Source of the DNA: a virus
Length of the DNA stretch: 45,531 bases
Virus record (IMG/VR): IMGVR_UViG_3300043446_005040
Coordinates: 1 to 45,531 of that record
Strand: one strand, 5' to 3'
Shown: in pieces, positions 1 through 45,531 of the stretch
Numbering within the stretch: the stretch's first letter is position 1
How the letters are laid out: every line of letters begins with the position of its first letter
The notes under the pieces: generated by a model
What the model was told of the DNA's origin: nothing
Databases searched by the model: none
The model's input: the letters and a program-made list of their open reading frames with translations, nothing else
Position numbers and translations under genes: made by a program

Positions 1-484
1 TATTTATTTGAAAATTAACAAAATCTTTATCAAACATGTAATGATCTCTTATTGGAGTTTTGTCAAATTCCCACTTAACCCCAGTTGATGGTTTATATAT
101 TGAATGGTCTTTATTGTAATAAACTAATGATTTTGCTTGAATATTCTTATACATCTCTGGGTTTTTTTCTATCCATTTATAAAAATTTATTTTATTTATA
201 TCATATTTAGAATATGAAGTTTGCCCTTGAGATATTGCTTTTTGTGCTTGTCTTACAAATTGGCTTACAAGTCTTTCTGCGGGATCTCTAAAAGAAGAAA
301 AAATATAAGTTGATTCATTAATTATTGGTTCAAACCAGCACCAATGCGCTGTGTCTGTTTCACTTATTTCATGTATATTTACTTTATTATTTTTAAAATA
401 AGGAATCAAAGATGGCATCATGTTATGGCGAAAATGCGTTCCACCAGTGCGGGGTAAATGTAAATGATAAAAATAATCATGCAT
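1..484 (-). CDS. PAPS-dependent sulfotransferase-like protein, cut by the left window edge
   Basis: At least 161 residues are read from ATG at 484-482; the 3' end lies outside the window. Near the N-terminus is HLPRTGGTHFR, which fits the 5'-phosphosulfate loop of sulfotransferases. At about residues 65-75 is SSFRDPAERLVSQF, which fits the 3'-phosphate motif with its conserved Arg and Ser. Both motifs are typical of the Sulfotransfer_2 / heparan 2-O-sulfotransferase-like group, whose members move sulfate from PAPS to a sugar, lipid or protein hydroxyl. The acceptor cannot be told. The ATG overlaps the upstream stop by one base (TAATG), so translation is probably coupled to the monooxygenase gene. 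It is one of only two minus-strand genes here. The fold call is fairly sure; the role (surface modification or sulfur handling) is inference. Confidence 0.75.
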   Translation of the reverse strand, partial: MHDYFYHLHLPRTGGTHFRHNMMPSLIPYFKNNKVNIHEISETDTAHWCWFEPIINESTYIFSSFRDPAERLVSQFVRQAQKAISQGQTSYSKYDINKINFYKWIEKNPEMYKNIQAKSLVYYNKDHSIYKPSTGVKWEFDKTPIRDHYMFDKDFVNFQIN

Positions 485-1476
485 TATATTATTCCTTTAT
501 TTTTTAGAATTGGCATTACACCATTAATAAAATTATTTGCATAATATATTTCTGGAGTACCCCCTAAAAGCAATCGGTTGAGTCCAGCATTATAAAAATT
601 TTCTATTAAGTCAGCCACCTCGACATAGCTTCCAACCATAGCAGTTATACCTCCATGACGAAGTAATCCAAATCCAGCCCAAATATTCTTTTCTATTGTT
701 AAGTTTTCTTTAGAATAATTATGTAGTTTTTGTTGATGAACAACATTTTGTGATTCATGCAGCAAGGCTTCTTCTTTTAAACTGTTTATAATTTCGTCAG
801 TAGCATAGGTAAGTATTTGTTCCGTAGTGTCCCAAGCAGACCTACTGTCTTTTTCAACTATTATAGTAGCTTTTATGCCAGAGTCTACTTTTATCTTATT
901 TCTATTCTGTTTATATTGCTCTAAAGTTTCCATAGCATAATAGTGGGCATTCCCTACAGAATTAGCATTATGTATCGTGTTGTCTGATGATCCAGCAAAT
1001 ACTATTTCAAAGTCACACCCAGACATAGTATCAACATTTTCCAACTGATAAAATTCTCCATTATATGAATCAATTCTTCCATTTGTTACAAGTTTTTTAA
1101 CTATTTCAGCATACTCTAAAGATCTTTTATATCTAAGAGAAATTGGAGTATGATCCCCATAACTAGCAAGCTCTTCTTTGTGTGCTCCAGACACAATATT
1201 TAAAATTAGTCTATCTCCAAATATTTTTTGAAAAGTTGCAACCTTCATAGCACAATATGTAGGACTTAGCTGAGCTGGATTAATTGCTAACATAAATTTA
1301 ATATTTTTTGTAAGTGCTGAATATTTATAAGCCACTCCCCAAGGGTCGGGATAAAAAGATGTTGTTCTAATTAATATACAATGGATATTGCTTGTGTCTA
1401 GGAGTTGCAACAAATCTAGATTTTCATCAAGGTCATGCCCTCGTTCAAACATCCACTCTATTTTTAATTTATCCAC
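484..1476 (-). CDS. Luciferase-like FMNH2-dependent monooxygenase, SsuD-like
   Basis: 330 residues starting at GTG 1476, with AGGAGA four bases upstream. The chain follows alkanesulfonate monooxygenase SsuD (about 380 residues) over most of its length: the PxPW region near residue 45, LAINPAQLSPT, the RLILNIVSG strand, the FAGSSD flavin/substrate loop, NLWAG-like NIWAGFGLLRHGG, and the LLLGGTPE end strand. It stops where SsuD has a C-terminal tail. Family members use reduced FMN and O2, often to cleave C-S bonds and release sulfite. Against SsuD as I remember it, Cys54, Arg226 and His228 are not kept (Phe/Tyr, Lys and Thr here) while Arg297 is, so substrate and even activity are uncertain. 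No flavin reductase is seen nearby. Coupled to the sulfotransferase downstream. Confidence 0.82.
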   Translation of the reverse strand: MDKLKIEWMFERGHDLDENLDLLQLLDTSNIHCILIRTTSFYPDPWGVAYKYSALTKNIKFMLAINPAQLSPTYCAMKVATFQKIFGDRLILNIVSGAHKEELASYGDHTPISLRYKRSLEYAEIVKKLVTNGRIDSYNGEFYQLENVDTMSGCDFEIVFAGSSDNTIHNANSVGNAHYYAMETLEQYKQNRNKIKVDSGIKATIIVEKDSRSAWDTTEQILTYATDEIINSLKEEALLHESQNVVHQQKLHNYSKENLTIEKNIWAGFGLLRHGGITAMVGSYVEVADLIENFYNAGLNRLLLGGTPEIYYANNFINGVMPILKNKGII

Positions 1477-1488
1477 AAGATCTCCTAT

Positions 1489-1542: not shown

Positions 1543-1746
1543 ATGAGAGTATCAAAAAGTAGATCATTTTTAAAATCATGGACCTATAGATTTTTTGGGA
1601 CATTGACTTCATTTTTAGTAGTTTATGCAGTTACTGGAAAAGGAAATTTAGCAACTTTGATAGCATTTTGGGAAACAATAATTAAAGTTGGAGTCTATTA
1701 CTGGCATGAACGAATTTGGGATAATATTCAATGGGGAAGAAAATAA
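1543..1746 (+). CDS. DUF2061 small membrane protein
   Basis: 67 residues. It has the DUF2061 signature: an N-terminal SWTYRFFGTLTSF segment, a hydrophobic stretch, then ETIIKVGVYYWHERIWDNI and a WGR end. Two short hydrophobic segments (about residues 15-30 and 36-52) suggest an inner-membrane hairpin. The family's function is unknown. From memory, unverified, DUF2061 occurs fused to or beside APS kinase in some bacteria, which would be of interest beside the sulfur-type genes just upstream. The next gene overlaps its 3' end by 16 bases. Confidence 0.75.
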   Translation: MRVSKSRSFLKSWTYRFFGTLTSFLVVYAVTGKGNLATLIAFWETIIKVGVYYWHERIWDNIQWGRK

Positions 1747-5427: not shown

Positions 5428-6567
5428 ATGAGCAATGAACTATTACAAAAAGTAATTGATACAACAAATCTCGGTACACCAGGCAACGACTTGGCAGGTG
5501 ATGGTACACCTTCAGGTACAGGTCTTTTATACCCAGATCAAGCTAACAGATTCCTAGATTATATGTGGGATGCAACAATTCTTGCAAAGGCAGCACGTAC
5601 AATCCGTATGCGCAGCAATACTACAGAAATTGATCGTGTATCTGTTGGTCAGAGACTTATGACAGTTGCAGCAGAAGAGCAACCACGTGACTATGTTACT
5701 GGTTTCACAAACGCAGCAGCAACTTTCTCTAAGATTTCTCTAACAACTCGTAAGCTTCGTCTTGATTGGGAACTTTCATCTGAAGCTTTGGAAGATAACC
5801 TTGAGGGTCCAGATCTAGAAGATCACATTGCACGTCTGATGGCAACACAGGCTGGTAATGATATTGAAGACACTCTTATCAACGCTAAGGGCAGCGGATC
5901 TGGCTTAATGTCAGCATTCGTAGGTTTCCGTAAGGGAGCAATTGACAACGCACACGTTGTTGATGCTAATGCACAAGGATTAGATAAGGCAGTATTCAAT
6001 AAGGCAATCAAGACCATGCCACGTAAGTACAAGCAACGTCGTAATCAGCTTCGCTTCTTCTCAGGTTCAAACCTAGTACAAGATTATCTATATAATCTTA
6101 CAGCTAATGCTGGTTCAGTAAACCCATGGGATATCGCTTCTGGCGTAATCCGTGGTGACGTAGTTGCTAATGATGGAGGACCAGGTACAACCACTCCATT
6201 TGCTTTCGGTATCCCAGTAATTAACGTGCCTCTTATGGATGAAACTCGTGATTCCACAGGAAAGGCATTTGATGATGCAGGATACGATGCATCTGCAGGT
6301 TTGTTCGGTGATTTACACTTAACATTCCCACAGAATTTCATCGTTGGTATCAAGCGTGATGTTGTTGTCTATCGTCTCTTCCAGCCAAAGAAGGATACAA
6401 TTGAGTACACTCTATTTATCCGTGTAGGCTGCGCATTTGAGAATTATGACGCACATGTTATCGTAAAGAATGTAAAAGTCGGAGGCACTGATTTCGGTGA
6501 TCTCGGTTCTGTAACACACGGCGATCTCGTTTCTAACGCAGATGAAAACGTACGTGGTACATTCTAA
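5428..6567 (+). CDS. Major capsid protein, HK97 fold
   Basis: 379 residues. The shell protein is recognised from its position after protease/scaffold and from its pattern: a flexible N-terminal arm (to about 35), the AKAARTIRMRSN strand, SKISLTTRKLRLDWELSSEALEDN, the long helix DHIARLMATQAGNDIEDTLI (about 132-150), then a C-terminal segment with DLHLTFPQNFIVGIKRDVVVYR and IEYTLFIRVGCAFENYDAHVIVKNVKV. Codon choice is visibly different from most neighbours, with CGT, GGT, ATC and AAG common and AGA/ATA rare, as expected for a very abundant protein. A strong hairpin terminator follows. No promoter is seen in the 34-base gap upstream, so it is read with the protease gene. Confidence 0.92.
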   Translation: MSNELLQKVIDTTNLGTPGNDLAGDGTPSGTGLLYPDQANRFLDYMWDATILAKAARTIRMRSNTTEIDRVSVGQRLMTVAAEEQPRDYVTGFTNAAATFSKISLTTRKLRLDWELSSEALEDNLEGPDLEDHIARLMATQAGNDIEDTLINAKGSGSGLMSAFVGFRKGAIDNAHVVDANAQGLDKAVFNKAIKTMPRKYKQRRNQLRFFSGSNLVQDYLYNLTANAGSVNPWDIASGVIRGDVVANDGGPGTTTPFAFGIPVINVPLMDETRDSTGKAFDDAGYDASAGLFGDLHLTFPQNFIVGIKRDVVVYRLFQPKKDTIEYTLFIRVGCAFENYDAHVIVKNVKVGGTDFGDLGSVTHGDLVSNADENVRGTF

Positions 6568-24500: not shown

Positions 24501-24683
24501 ACTCAAAAAAACTATAATAATAGTAGTTATGGTATGGGTGCAGGTGCTAGACAAAGAACTATTGTTATGGATCCTTATGATAAACAACTTTACAGAGGTT
24601 TTGCAATTTATTATGGAAGTAGAAGCACAGCCCCTTCAGCTGGTACTGGCCATGTTGGCGATATATGGGTTAGTTGGTCTTAA
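21585..24683 (+). CDS. Tail fibre protein with fibronectin-III-like repeats
   Basis: 1032 residues, with GAAAGGAG upstream. After a ~95-residue head region and a Gly/Pro linker (GSDGGGSGNPPGLP) come repeated beta-sandwich segments beginning VENLTAAWGDDDSIVLNFDF, then ASIQWVGNDVRVNFTQPSS, and GYVVEFDLPSGATRLEVYE, typical of fibronectin-III-like domains. From about residue 550 on there are Gly/Ser/Asn-rich repeats (FTVNQNGDLTATSATITGSL, LVATNAEISGTITANQVDIG) like beta-helix fibre stalks. The C-terminal ~60 residues are a Tyr/Gly-rich knob. It is likely a structural fibre or side fibre on the tail tip. Confidence 0.75.
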   Translation: MKIDLNSKYLSSSSYAKKQTIPIDMLLDPRLTSLTANFKIARQNAEYTPIGEGKNLAGLLLTLKNQALFSYQNPHTGSDGGGSGNPPGLPSIGTPPLQVENLTAAWGDDDSIVLNFDFDPNDEANQYIAYFKVKLKNSADKLFPLRSGVGYDAQNILDLASISQEIIIPWEDWSGSGIQDPETISQVGVATADILQTGDYVYADLNAGSYVPSLPTPEFTLSAGVDYYVVNISNLSSAISKGTYYGIIVEEYISPITVKAQIPQPTTMTNGWVQATALTTNSVVVIYTPDEAHRWVRVKYLSKSGRGSTYSDIQDITPLPFQQTNTNPPGQFSSASIQWVGNDVRVNFTQPSSNSGNTVKVKLVPYINGVESTSLYAYYYHIINGSETFFTIPSLDLYGQFGTYYSTFKAYITSVSAQGVETTGAVITSGPITRSSSISSIYPTLGTPNVNSPTGVFRVNAISNGYVVEFDLPSGATRLEVYEKSTAWTTVPTDDSNMVYSGLSPAVVITPDTNNRYVIVRYYDQYDNYSHYSMEKSGQTSGVLVSPVDIGRNSLIANPIKIQTDGSIFSGAGGSTVYPQVFFNKDGLFAYDASGNWTTEIINSATTNAPTFITKRAVIGDWTINPAGIQNDLYASGPNKTYTGMSASGTYAFWAGSGTSNNSDGLAKFSVTPGGAVVSRSISIIGDGTGGDLIRAGGSKFTVNQNGDLTATSATITGSLTVDQQSYFDSNVNVRNGYIIAGSGGPNSGPNVQIDSTGLSARSASAVTTKIYSSAPDVSGIAGVSLWSKKALFGSTTSSGWLIEDGVMKSDYVTLNSANHQISIYSTNNAYGVQLNGDVDTSNKALVIGNLSNPSFYVTHAGKLVATNAEISGTITANQVDIGNYGVNVWNSSQFYVSATGAGTGQVGDIIIQAGTMSGQEDTNDGDEVNSLAVYNMSYSGRIRMNSSGTQIFGLPKLGDYSKYGGGGIYTLTQKNYNNSSYGMGAGARQRTIVMDPYDKQLYRGFAIYYGSRSTAPSAGTGHVGDIWVSWS

Positions 24684-24685
24684 AA

Positions 24686-27600
24686 ATGGCAAATGCTCCA
24701 AAAATATGGGGAAAACAATATACCAACTCTAATTGGGGAGAAATAAAAAGAGTTTGGGTTAAAAAAGATCCAGGTACTATTTGGGAACGTGCAAGAAAAA
24801 TATGGTTAAAGGTATACACAACTGGAACTTGGAAATTAATATTTTCAGGCGGGAATCTTCCTGTATCTAGTGAAACAGATCCAATATCAATAAGATATAA
24901 TTCATATACTGGAACTAAATTAACTGACTCTTATGCCTTTATAGGTGGTCCAGCATCTGATGGAACTGATACTCAATCTCTTCTTTCTGCATATTATTTA
25001 TATGGACATGACGGTTCATATACAAACTATACTTCTATAACAAATAGACACTACAAATACGCATATCCAACTATAAATGACGTGCTTGGCACTCTAGAGG
25101 ATGATGATATATTAAATACAAAATCAAATATGGAAGTTGCCGAAAATTGTTATATTTGGTATAACTTAAAAGTTTGGAATGGTTCAGACCCATTTGACGC
25201 AGTAGAATTCGAAGCTGGACCTGTATATATGATCAAGCAAGATGTATATGCAAATTCATTTCCATCAATTTCTGGTACTCAATCTGTTGACAATACAATA
25301 TCAATGGTTTATAATTATAAAAATTATTGGTATAACAGCCCAGATCAATCAGATTCATATATAGCTTGGTACAGATCTTCAGATGGATATACACTACCTG
25401 GGGTTAATACAGATAGTGATGTTGGAAATCCAGTTGCTATTAAATATTTTACAGATTCTTCAACAAATAATACTACAAGTATACAAGGAGCATTAAGTTA
25501 TAATGTTACTTCTGCTGATTCAGGTTATTATTTAATTTGTAGAACACATGTTGAAAATTCATATACAAAATATTTTAACAACCCAGTGGATTATCGTGTT
25601 TCAACAAATGGAAAAATTGGAGTACCTCCACCAACAAACAGTGTAAAACCATATTATGAATTAATATCTGGAACTGCAAATACAGTTGGAGCAACGTACA
25701 GATTTTATCCAGGAACTTGGAATAACCCAGCATCAGGGACAACATTGCAATATAGATATATATTAGACAAAAATAATATATCAGGAACTAATGTATTTAC
25801 AAATCCAGGAGTGACTACTTTTACTTCTGACACATATTTTGACTATACATTTAATAATCAAATAACAGATACTTTATCTTTCTACGTGCTGGCAACCAAT
25901 GGAAGTGAATCTTTAAATTATGCTTTTGCACAAACGTCACTTGGGCCAATTTTAGCACCTTTCACACTTGGAACTGTTCCAGTTTCGGGAGGATCTTCTG
26001 GTACGTATTCAGACACTGGCACAAGAGATGTCTCAGCTGGAGCAACTTTAACAGTTTCGCCAACTGGTTGGCCCACAGGAACTACTTTTACATACCAATG
26101 GTATAGAACTAGTGGAGGACAACAAAATGTAGGTGCTTGGGGATCTTCTGCTTCACAAGCAGTTGGAACATCTTACGTTGGAGAAAATACATACTGCAAA
26201 GTTACTTATTCTAACTCTAATTACCCCACAAATGGTAGTGGATATCTTTTTACTGATGGTTTTACAATTGTTCCATCTGCCCCTACATTTAGTTTGACAA
26301 ACAATAATAATGGAACATTTACGATATCTGGAGTTGCTTCAGGAGGAGCTGGATATTATGAAGGGTCATATACTTACGCAGGTAACACGTATGCAATAGC
26401 TAGGACAGCAATAGGAACAGACAAAACATTTTCTCCAGGAGCGGGAGATGTTGTAGTTACATTGTACGGAACAAAATATGTAAGTGCTCTTGGGTTATAT
26501 TTTAAAGGTTATGAATCTAATTCTCACAGCGTAACGGTTCAACAGATTACATTGGGAGATTTTACATACTCATTATCAAATAGTACACCTACTCCTTATT
26601 GGAGCATAGGAGCTGGTATTAACATTACTGGATCCTCAAACAATGTTATGACTGTAACTTGGAGACCAGCAGACGGAGTTGTGAGTTCATATGCAGACCA
26701 AGTAAGTGGTGTGTACAATTCTTATTTGTATAATACTGGTTTATCAACAAGCGATGTTTGGACTTATAGTAGTAGTGGTAATGAATCTGCAACAGTTTAC
26801 GCTTATAATAATAATACATCTACATATTCAGTTACTGTTTCATGGACCCCATCTGCAAATGCACAAAGTTATATGGTTAATTACACTATACCAGGTAAAG
26901 GTATATATGGTGCATGGTCTGGACCAATTACTGGCAACAGTTGGACTTATACAACTGATCAAAGCGTAACTGCAAGCGTTACAGCCTACTCTAATGCAAA
27001 CGGAACGGGAGTATCAAAAGGAGGATCTGTTTCGGGTAGCAGTTCTTTGACAGCTTCTGGAACTTCTGTTTCAGCAACAGGTGGTCCTTTTTATCTTACA
27101 TATACTCCTCCAGCTGTAAAACCATCTATTGTTACATATCCAGCTATTACTCCAACAAGCGGAACTTTAGGTTCTACACAATTTACTTGTAGCACTGGAA
27201 CATGGAATGGAACTCCAACTCCAACGTATACATACAATTGGTATTATTTAAAATCCAGTGGTTGGACTTCAACAGGAGTGACTACAAGTACTTATACTCC
27301 GCCAACATCCTTGTCAAGCATCACTGGATTTTTGTATACATTGTATTGCGAAGTAACTGCTACGAATTCAGCTGGCTCCACTGTTGCAGGATCAAATAGC
27401 GTAGGGGTTAGCTCTCCATCAGTATTTAGTCCACCTTTCTTCCCACCGTTCTTTCCACCGTTCTTTCCTCCAAGCTTTTTTACTCCACCATTTTTCCCAC
27501 CAGGCTTCTTTAGCCCACCTTTCTTTCCGCCGTTCTTCCCACCAAGCTTTTTCTGCATTGATCAGGATACTCCTATCGCCTTGATTAAAAATAATGAAAT

Positions 27601-28051
27601 AATTTGGACAAAAGCTAAAGAAGTAAAAATTGGAGATATTGCAGTTTCTATTTCAATGGATAATTTGGAAGATGAAACAAAAATAGATCCTTACACATGG
27701 TCATCAAAAGAATTAAAAAATATTAAATATGAAAAAACTGAAATTAAAAATATATTAACCCACACAAAAGATGTTACTTTAATCTTAAATAAAGATCAAA
27801 ATAAAAGATTTTCCCTTGAGCAAACAGTTTTAATGAATAGGTCGGGAGTTTGGTTTTTTGGCTCAACTGGCCAGCTAGAAATTGGTGACATTCTTTTAGA
27901 GGAGCAAAATGATAAAAGCTTTAAGAACATAGAAGTTACATCTATAGATATTATAGATGGTCAAAGAGAGGTTTTTGAATTTGATGCATCCCCCCATGAT
28001 TTGCTGTTAGCAGGAAGCCTTGTTGTTCATAATAAAAAGGTATTTGCTTGA
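24686..28051 (+). CDS. Tail fibre/adhesin with Ig-like domains, Pro/Phe repeat and C-terminal Hint domain
   Basis: 1121 residues from ATG 24686, two bases after the previous stop; no Shine-Dalgarno, so probably coupled. Order: N-terminal ~50 residues with W-rich repeats (WGKQYTNSNWGEIKRVWVKK); beta-sandwich domains; Ig-like domains near 830-935 (FTCSTGTWNGTPTPTYTYNW); a 42-residue SPPFFPP-type repeat (about 915-956); then a Hint domain from Cys957 (CIDQDTPIAL, KAKEVKIGD) to His1115-Asn1116 (LVVHN), followed by only five residues (KKVFA). Hint domains self-cleave or splice. Here Lys, not Cys/Ser/Thr, follows the HN, so cleavage or ligation to another nucleophile is likelier than splicing. The block-B His seems replaced by Gln (SLEQTVL). 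Confidence 0.82.
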   Translation: MANAPKIWGKQYTNSNWGEIKRVWVKKDPGTIWERARKIWLKVYTTGTWKLIFSGGNLPVSSETDPISIRYNSYTGTKLTDSYAFIGGPASDGTDTQSLLSAYYLYGHDGSYTNYTSITNRHYKYAYPTINDVLGTLEDDDILNTKSNMEVAENCYIWYNLKVWNGSDPFDAVEFEAGPVYMIKQDVYANSFPSISGTQSVDNTISMVYNYKNYWYNSPDQSDSYIAWYRSSDGYTLPGVNTDSDVGNPVAIKYFTDSSTNNTTSIQGALSYNVTSADSGYYLICRTHVENSYTKYFNNPVDYRVSTNGKIGVPPPTNSVKPYYELISGTANTVGATYRFYPGTWNNPASGTTLQYRYILDKNNISGTNVFTNPGVTTFTSDTYFDYTFNNQITDTLSFYVLATNGSESLNYAFAQTSLGPILAPFTLGTVPVSGGSSGTYSDTGTRDVSAGATLTVSPTGWPTGTTFTYQWYRTSGGQQNVGAWGSSASQAVGTSYVGENTYCKVTYSNSNYPTNGSGYLFTDGFTIVPSAPTFSLTNNNNGTFTISGVASGGAGYYEGSYTYAGNTYAIARTAIGTDKTFSPGAGDVVVTLYGTKYVSALGLYFKGYESNSHSVTVQQITLGDFTYSLSNSTPTPYWSIGAGINITGSSNNVMTVTWRPADGVVSSYADQVSGVYNSYLYNTGLSTSDVWTYSSSGNESATVYAYNNNTSTYSVTVSWTPSANAQSYMVNYTIPGKGIYGAWSGPITGNSWTYTTDQSVTASVTAYSNANGTGVSKGGSVSGSSSLTASGTSVSATGGPFYLTYTPPAVKPSIVTYPAITPTSGTLGSTQFTCSTGTWNGTPTPTYTYNWYYLKSSGWTSTGVTTSTYTPPTSLSSITGFLYTLYCEVTATNSAGSTVAGSNSVGVSSPSVFSPPFFPPFFPPFFPPSFFTPPFFPPGFFSPPFFPPFFPPSFFCIDQDTPIALIKNNEIIWTKAKEVKIGDIAVSISMDNLEDETKIDPYTWSSKELKNIKYEKTEIKNILTHTKDVTLILNKDQNKRFSLEQTVLMNRSGVWFFGSTGQLEIGDILLEEQNDKSFKNIEVTSIDIIDGQREVFEFDASPHDLLLAGSLVVHNKKVFA
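27428..27553 (+). repeat. Tandem Pro/Phe-coding low-complexity repeat
   Basis: Seven or so units of the form TTC/TTT-TTC/TTT-CCA-CCN encode FFPP, interrupted by PSFF, TPP, PGFF and SPP. It lies just before the Hint cysteine codon (27554). The DNA units vary at third positions, so selection seems to act on the protein. Its direct-repeat nature could allow copy-number change. Confidence 0.85.
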
Positions 28052-44119: not shown

Positions 44120-45235
44120 ATGAAAAAAATGAGAAATATTGCCCTAGCCTTGGTTGCAGCCATGACTACCGCAACACTCGTCGCAACACCTGCAAGTGCT
44201 GCTGTAATGACAGTCGCAGTGACTCTTGATGGAACGGCTAACACAACCGCTTCATCAATTGCTACACCTGCTGCATTACCAGTACCTGCTGACAATACAG
44301 TAGATGCTGCAGATGCATTAAAGTTTGTTGCAACAGTTGATACAGGAACATCAGTTTCAGTTTCAACAACAAATGCAACAATCGTATCAGCATTACATAC
44401 ATCTGCTGCTCCAGTATCAGCATCGTCAGGATCTTCATCTTTGACAATTGCAACTGGTACAGGAACAACTGCAACATTTTATGTCTATACAAAGACAACA
44501 GCAATTGGAACAATTGCTATTACTAATGGCGGAACAACCTTAACATATTATGTTCAGGGAACTGCTGGCAAGATTAATACTCTTGCACTTTCATCTGCTG
44601 ATGCAGGAACAACTTCAAGTGTTGTAACCGCAACAGTAACTGCAACAGACGTATTTGGTAACAAGGTTGCATCAAAGGGTCTAACAGCACTTGTTGTTGG
44701 CGGAACTCTTGATACTACAACCGCAACAACTGGATCTGCATTGACAAATTATGGTCAAGCAGAATTCAAGGTTACATTGCCTACAACTGGCTCTTCAACA
44801 CTTGTTGTTTCTGTTACAAACTCTTCTGACGTTGCATCAGTCGTAACTGGATTCAATACAGTTACTTCAAGCGTAGTTAAGACAATCACAGTTCGTGATC
44901 TTCTTGGCGAACTTGCAGCACAAAAGGCTATTGCTGATGCAGCAGTTGCTGCTAAGGCAGTATCAGATGCTGCGCTTGCAACAGCAAACGCAAAGTCTGC
45001 AGCAGATCTTGCTGCTAAGGATGCAGAAATTGCTAAGTTGAAGGCTGATTCTGCAACTGCTTCAATTGCAACAACTAAGGCTATTGCAGACGCAGTAGCA
45101 GCAAAAGATGCTGAGATTAAATCTCTAAAGGATGCAAATGCTAAGGCACTTGCAGATCTTAAGGCTGCTTTCAATGCACTCGCTAAAAAGTGGAATGCAA
45201 AGAACCCAAAAGCTAAGGTTACGCTTGTTAAGTAA
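44120..45235 (+). CDS. Secreted, host-like surface protein with Ala-rich coiled coil
   Basis: 371 residues. The N-terminus is a Sec signal peptide: basic MKKMRN, a hydrophobic core, and a cleavage site after PASA (about residue 27). Residues ~28-250 are Ser/Thr/Val/Ala-rich beta repeats (LDGTANTTASSIATPAAL, VVTATVTATDVFGNKV), like bacterial Ig-like surface layers. Residues ~265-350 are an Ala/Lys coiled coil, followed by a basic tail (WNAKNPKAKVTLVK). The style is that of actinobacterial cell-surface proteins rather than phage ones, and codon use is GC-richer than neighbours, so capture from a host is likely. It has AAAGGA before the ATG and a very strong terminator after it. Confidence 0.75.
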   Translation: MKKMRNIALALVAAMTTATLVATPASAAVMTVAVTLDGTANTTASSIATPAALPVPADNTVDAADALKFVATVDTGTSVSVSTTNATIVSALHTSAAPVSASSGSSSLTIATGTGTTATFYVYTKTTAIGTIAITNGGTTLTYYVQGTAGKINTLALSSADAGTTSSVVTATVTATDVFGNKVASKGLTALVVGGTLDTTTATTGSALTNYGQAEFKVTLPTTGSSTLVVSVTNSSDVASVVTGFNTVTSSVVKTITVRDLLGELAAQKAIADAAVAAKAVSDAALATANAKSAADLAAKDAEIAKLKADSATASIATTKAIADAVAAKDAEIKSLKDANAKALADLKAAFNALAKKWNAKNPKAKVTLVK

Positions 45236-45311: not shown

Positions 45312-45531
45312 ATGGCAGAAAAAGGTACAAGAGCACTTCTACTTGAAGTGATTCAAAAAGAAGTTGGATACGTAGAAGGTCCAAAAGATAATGAAACTAA
45401 ATATGGTGCATATACAAAGGCAAACTTTTTGCCATGGTGTGGATCATTTGTTAACTGGTCCGCTAATCAGGCTGGTGTAAAAGTTCCAAATACAGTTTAT
45501 ACACCTGCTGGTGTAGCAGCATTTAAAAAGA
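45312..45531 (+). CDS. CHAP-domain endolysin, cut by the right window edge
   Basis: 73 residues are visible from ATG 45312, with AAGGAGAA upstream. VIQKEVGYVEGPKDNETKYGAYT and LPWCGSFVNWSANQAGVKVP are the start of a CHAP/NlpC-type amidase-peptidase; the Cys in PWCGSF is the catalytic residue. The His and any cell-wall binding domain lie beyond the window. No signal peptide, so export depends on a holin. Codon use is of the high-expression type. Confidence 0.82.
   Translation, partial: MAEKGTRALLLEVIQKEVGYVEGPKDNETKYGAYTKANFLPWCGSFVNWSANQAGVKVPNTVYTPAGVAAFKK

Follow-up and report, generated by a model that had tools for sequence, protein, structure and literature searches.

The overlapping gene pair and its recurrence

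The DNA analysed here, referred to as the window, is the 45,531-base IMG/VR virus record IMGVR_UViG_3300043446_005040, and two overlapping minus-strand genes lie at its left end. The first of them to be read (484–1476) has a GTG start and a TAA stop and encodes a 330-residue protein that was assigned by profile, fold and alignment to the LLM-class (bacterial luciferase-like) flavin monooxygenases related to SsuD; a Shine-Dalgarno-like AGGAG (1482–1486, minus strand) stands five bases before its start. The second (2–484) begins with ATG and, its reading frame being open at the contig end, covers only the N-terminal 161 residues of a sulfotransferase-like protein, recognised by motifs and weak profile matches. 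The oxygenase stop and the sulfotransferase start share one base in a TAATG (482–486, minus strand), which the initial annotation had pointed out and which was confirmed in the sequence, and this overlap suggests that the two genes are translationally coupled. A promoter scan returned sites that did not clearly exceed those in shuffled sequence. It had also been stated that these are the only two minus-strand genes, which holds for open reading frames of at least 100 amino acids, the others on this strand all being located inside longer plus-strand frames.

The divergent neighbour of the pair (1543–1746, plus strand) encodes a 67-residue DUF2061 small membrane protein (Pfam PF09834, E 2.3e-15), and in the related contig L005 its homologue (5737–5988) diverges from the oxygenase gene in the same way. 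At the other end of the window, the start of an endolysin-like gene (45312–45531, plus strand) was recognised by sequence comparison with L005, where the endolysin-like homologue is found about 4.3 kb beyond the sulfotransferase. The endolysin and DUF2061 genes come in the same order in both, which suggests that the window is a circularly permuted genome from which a few kb are absent at the joint. This shared gene order would place the pair in an accessory slot between the lysis and head genes; in the window, the pair is followed by genes for the portal, the head maturation protease and the major capsid protein. Relatives carry DUF2061, kinase, methyltransferase and further accessory genes in this slot as well.

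Candidates for tape-measure, helicase, primase, RecA-like and terminase proteins were recognised in the window by reading the translations, and a DnaE-type polymerase is encoded on the same contig. Both this polymerase and the major capsid protein are about 55% identical to their Streptomyces phage counterparts. L005, which has the pair and the endolysin in common with the window, encodes a WhiB factor, which according to PMC10202952 points to actinophages; a profile search gave no WhiB match in the window itself. Given the Streptomyces-phage-like capsid and DnaE proteins and the WhiB factor of this relative, an actinobacterial host is the most likely, and the low G+C content leads us to guess at the freshwater order Nanopelagicales. 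By reading, a large tail-type protein (24674–28051) carries phenylalanine/proline-rich repeats and a Hint-like domain at its end; similar proteins are encoded in L004 and L024, beside their islands of 2OG-Fe(II) oxygenase and sulfotransferase genes. A further protein (44120–45235) has a signal-peptide-like start, resembles one in L034 (2185–3186) and is possibly secreted or located at a surface.

When 2.9 million viral contigs were scanned (four scans with oxygenase queries and three with sulfotransferase queries), the oxygenase was found only in the phage of the window and in four others (L005, L004, L006 and L024), the last being retrieved by both kinds of scan. The sulfotransferase directly follows the oxygenase, in the same order, in all five. 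The genes overlap by one base in the window and L005 and by a four-base ATGA in L004, L006 and L024, and identity to the window proteins in the four other phages is 58–72% for the oxygenase and about 42–55% for the sulfotransferase. Since the scan depends on short peptides matching exactly, members at a greater distance would have escaped it. Because the overlapping pair recurs in four other phages, a chance pairing is excluded. Evolutionary distances of the two proteins correlated with r 0.52, a value that is not informative with ten pairs and one truncated sequence. The initial annotation would have been overturned by either protein falling outside its family or by the pair never co-occurring in related phages; neither protein was seen to fall outside its family, and the pair is present in four other phages. 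No report of an SsuD-like oxygenase paired with a sulfotransferase was found in the open-licence literature searched.

Family assignment of the two proteins

The full-length sulfotransferase comprises about 250 residues in relatives. A leftward extension had been proposed to complete the window protein, and an identical shorter contig was indeed found (L002, IMGVR 3300046804_001923), but it adds only 34 bases and leaves the gene partial. The PAPS-binding motifs described initially are present, PRTGGT corresponding to the 5'-phosphosulfate loop and FRDPAERLVSQF to the 3'-phosphate motif; across 11 phage homologues, both regions contain many invariant or near-invariant columns, with PxTGGT and R(D/N)P..R conserved. 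In these motifs, in the length of its relatives and in weak profile matches, the protein resembles the Sulfotransfer_2 and PHROG 3347 phage sulfotransferases. The window fragment alone matched only PHROG 3347 (galactose-3-O-sulfotransferase, E 1.6e-4), and Sulfotransfer_2 was matched at E < 1 by six of the 11 homologues (best E 1.2e-5, above the family cut-off), the L018 homologue scoring 26.0 bits against a cut-off of 22. It differs from Sulfotransfer_2 in that the window protein lies below Pfam reporting and that a PDB sequence search gave no significant relative. The structure prediction (pLDDT 57) was too poor to use and gave no fold match. By family, the gene at 2–484 is very probably a sulfotransferase, the activity itself being suggested by the motifs and by the weak profile matches of the homologues.

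A second sulfotransferase family is encoded on the minus strand of the same islands as the pair in L004 (7983–8669, PF03567), L006 (8992–9678) and L024 (10017–10703). In a profile comparison, the sulfotransferase of the pair matched this second family with E 1.9e-6 over the half that carries the motifs, and the second sulfotransferase of L004 matched Sulfotransfer_2 with E 1.6e-6.

The oxygenase belongs to the luciferase-like superfamily (PF00296) by both profile and TIM-barrel fold, its match to Bac_luciferase reaching 104.6 bits (E 8.5e-30) against a curated cut-off of 27.9. Its best NCBIfam models are those of SsuD. A profile built from five phage homologues retrieved MsuD (E 4e-45) and SsuD (E 1e-40) from the PDB, and the structure model (pLDDT 73.7, with a poor lid region) matched SsuD/MsuD entries best (TM 0.77–0.82), SfnG and RutA being further fold matches. 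The structure prediction proposed for both proteins was thus of use for the oxygenase, which has the SsuD/MsuD fold, but not for the sulfotransferase. Nevertheless, the oxygenase is only 27% identical to E. coli SsuD, lacks the SsuD C-terminal tail and scores 143.6 bits with TIGR03565, far under the equivalog cut-off of 518.2. The SsuD label given initially fits the fold and the nearest relatives of this protein, but probably not its function.

In a 20-row maximum-likelihood tree, the five phage oxygenases form one group (100/100). Under midpoint rooting, this group joins a second one, made up solely of shorter phage proteins, and cellular SsuD is separate from it (99/98). Members of this second luciferase-like group are about 250 residues long and are encoded in L023 (2212–3015, minus strand), L034 (3246–4037 and 5228–6004), L036 (5006–5770) and L092 (5258–6004), adjoining APS-kinase-like and DUF2061-like genes in several loci. 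Matches on plasmids were 23–32% identical to the oxygenase, annotated SsuD among them, and the nearest plasmid-borne relative adjoins what, by reading, would be genes for an ABC transporter and a substrate-binding protein. Scans of cellular genome contigs for oxygenase relatives yielded nothing useful. Matches in INPHARED under the name 'Acinetobacter phage MD-2021a' were rejected as phage oxygenases, the entry CAKLQH020000009.1 carrying argA and an ssu transporter operon and looking like bacterial chromosome.

Active-site residues of the oxygenase

Contacts to flavin, dioxygen and sulfonate were defined according to MsuD (PMC8234197), and the residues were mapped onto the five phage proteins through an alignment with E. 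coli SsuD. Compared with MsuD and SsuD, the FMN and dioxygen pocket is largely retained, T38, A64, N93, V95, G97, R115, Y116, S163 and S164 being kept in all five. The exceptions are the flavin-phosphate residue H123, changed to I, together with R77 to N, L193 to Y, G109 and G175 to A, and the lid residues E266 and G267. It is conceivable that monooxygenase chemistry has been lost altogether and that the protein is another LLM-type flavin or F420 oxidoreductase or a non-enzymatic protein, as the changes at H123, R77 and lid G267 might suggest, along with members of the allied shorter phage group that match the Pfam profile over their own first half only. However, the equivalents of R126, Y127, S177, S178, N104 and V106 are kept in all five phage proteins, and this explanation is considered very improbable.

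The sulfonate motif is different. Its residues W195, R225, R296 and A/S299 (MsuD numbering) correspond in all five phage proteins to A/S, K, R and G, respectively, which departs from the SsuD/MsuD pattern and leaves a single one of the four sulfonate contacts, R273 (R296 of MsuD), R225 being represented by K202. Additionally, C54 and Y331 of SsuD, both of which presumably matter for that enzyme, are changed to Y/F and T/S, respectively, in all five. The pattern indicates that the sulfonate-binding pocket has been lost or rebuilt in the phage oxygenase while the flavin pocket was kept. Since two positive residues, R273 and K202, remain in the pocket, an anionic and even a sulfonate-type substrate is possible.

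These replacements bear on the first of the two roles suggested initially, the release of sulfur from organic sulfonates. According to this explanation, the oxygenase would be a working alkanesulfonate monooxygenase that frees sulfite for the infected cell, the sulfotransferase representing a separate or downstream use of sulfur. It agrees with SsuD/MsuD as the best family, PDB and fold matches, with the retained R296 and a lysine in place of R225, and with the transporter-like neighbours of the nearest plasmid-borne relative. However, the W195A, R225A and R296A substitutions each abolish sulfite production by MsuD (PMC8234197), and the first two of these positions are altered in all five phage proteins, as are S/A299, C54 and Y331; the equivalog score falls far short; no transporter was seen adjoining the pair; and no match to the flavin reductase families PF01613 and PF03358 was found in six fragmentary phage records. 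Moreover, a sulfotransferase uses up PAPS and supplies no sulfur. Sulfite release for sulfur nutrition is thus disfavoured by the loss of the sulfonate pocket, a PAPS-consuming partner would be of no help to it, and we regard it as improbable. The case cautions against taking an SsuD-like label in a phage for sulfonate-sulfur scavenging before its sulfonate pocket has been examined.

Possible role of the pair during infection

The second role suggested initially, modification of a host surface or a small molecule, is the better reading of the pair. The dependence between the two genes runs one way, the sulfotransferase occurring without the oxygenase but not, among the contigs scanned, the reverse, as would be expected if the oxygenase serves the pathway of the sulfotransferase. 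The sulfotransferase was found without the oxygenase in L017–L022 (short contigs, four of them near-identical), and in the three of these loci that were read (L018, L020 and L022) it is divergent to a 2OG-Fe(II) oxygenase gene. In L023, an oxygenase of the second phage group, short and only distantly related, is about 1.5 kb away from it. Oxygenases of the 2OG-Fe(II) type are present in 11 of the 11 other records with the sulfotransferase, with none in the window itself; in L005, the main 2OG cluster is far from the pair. An oxygenase thus accompanies the sulfotransferase throughout and, since the sulfotransferase that occurs alone adjoins another oxygenase family, the simplest account would be that oxygenation prepares or alters its acceptor.

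The genes around the pair include further tailoring functions. Flanking the pair in L004, L006 and L024 are 2OG oxygenases, a methyltransferase-like gene, the second sulfotransferase and a gene resembling aspartyl/asparaginyl hydroxylases, the last tested by profile in L004 and L024; glycosyltransferase and FkbM methyltransferase genes are located upstream of the pair in L005. Such neighbours are compatible with any of three acceptors: a glycan of the envelope, a virion protein or a small molecule. Among the 2OG oxygenases of these islands, DUF6065 proteins were also observed on the minus strand, by profile in L004 (2794–3507) and by resemblance in L006 (3771–4481) and L024 (4032–4739).

Taken together, these features are consistent with a phage tailoring cassette in which the oxygenase and the PAPS-dependent sulfotransferase act on one acceptor during infection, a proposal to which we attach about an even chance on the five examples of the pair known. 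The oxygenase, with its luciferase/SsuD fold, would work as a two-component (group C) monooxygenase dependent on FMNH2; a host reductase would provide the reduced flavin, and the acceptor oxygenated would no longer be a simple alkanesulfonate. The sulfotransferase would add a sulfuryl group to that acceptor, the hydroxyl made by the oxygenase being the simplest site, and would yield either a sulfated component of the host envelope or of the virion, or a small molecule. A more specific version, in which a phage lineage of the SsuD fold was retargeted from sulfonate breakdown to a two-step pathway (oxygenation and sulfation) whose target is a component of the host envelope or virion and which actinophages encode as a two-gene unit, is put forward with considerably more reserve, being rather unlikely in all its parts.

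The reverse order of steps has also to be weighed. If the sulfotransferase made a sulfate ester that the oxygenase then oxidised, R273 and K202 could bind the sulfate as their MsuD counterparts bind sulfonate, which would agree with the retention of both residues and with the company of a sulfotransferase in five of five cases; however, such sulfonate-like binding would be weakened by the loss of W195 and S/A299, and we hold this order to be improbable. Alternatively, the two genes could be independent morons in the variable slot between endolysin and head genes, travelling together by chance or through shared regulation and acting on different substrates. The other accessory genes held by this slot in relatives and the sulfotransferases without an oxygenase speak for such independence, but gene order and the overlapping start are constant in all five oxygenase loci despite differing neighbours, which makes it an unlikely but not a negligible explanation.

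Single phage sulfotransferases and 2OG-Fe(II) oxygenases have been reported as unexplained accessory genes, for instance in OM43 phages (PMC10580990), and viral organosulfur genes were described by Kieft et al. 2021, as cited in PMC11360552. The present genes resemble both in being accessory genes of aquatic phages with at most a presumed function. Among the auxiliary metabolic genes listed for phages, sulfotransferases and oxygenases often appear with no substrate assigned. A coupled pair whose oxygenase is, among the viral contigs scanned, always found with the sulfotransferase offers a defined two-enzyme hypothesis that can be tested in vitro.

As regards the cofactors of the proposed tailoring reactions, ATP sulfurylase, like flavin reductase, was not found in the six fragmentary phage records; PAPS and reduced flavin would therefore have to be derived from the host, and a host reductase may serve the phage oxygenase. 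On the minus strand of L005 (7791–8549, PHROG 10255) and L023 (847–1602), a fusion gene was noticed that joins an APS-kinase-like domain (PF01583), matched with E values of 1e-15 to 4e-17 over the first 84 residues only, to a domain resembling NMN adenylyltransferase. This gene has at least 519 confirmed relatives in viral contigs, and a sulfotransferase-profile match was found near 10 of 80 such loci, among the matches listed, one of them on the contig of L005 itself and the rest weak. A dedicated PAPS supply was rejected on the grounds that the gene is not specific to the pair and that its match is so short, and the C-terminal half was rejected as an ATP sulfurylase, giving no PF01747 match and resembling nicotinamide-nucleotide adenylyltransferase. 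The fusion may serve PAPS synthesis, NAD metabolism or another role.
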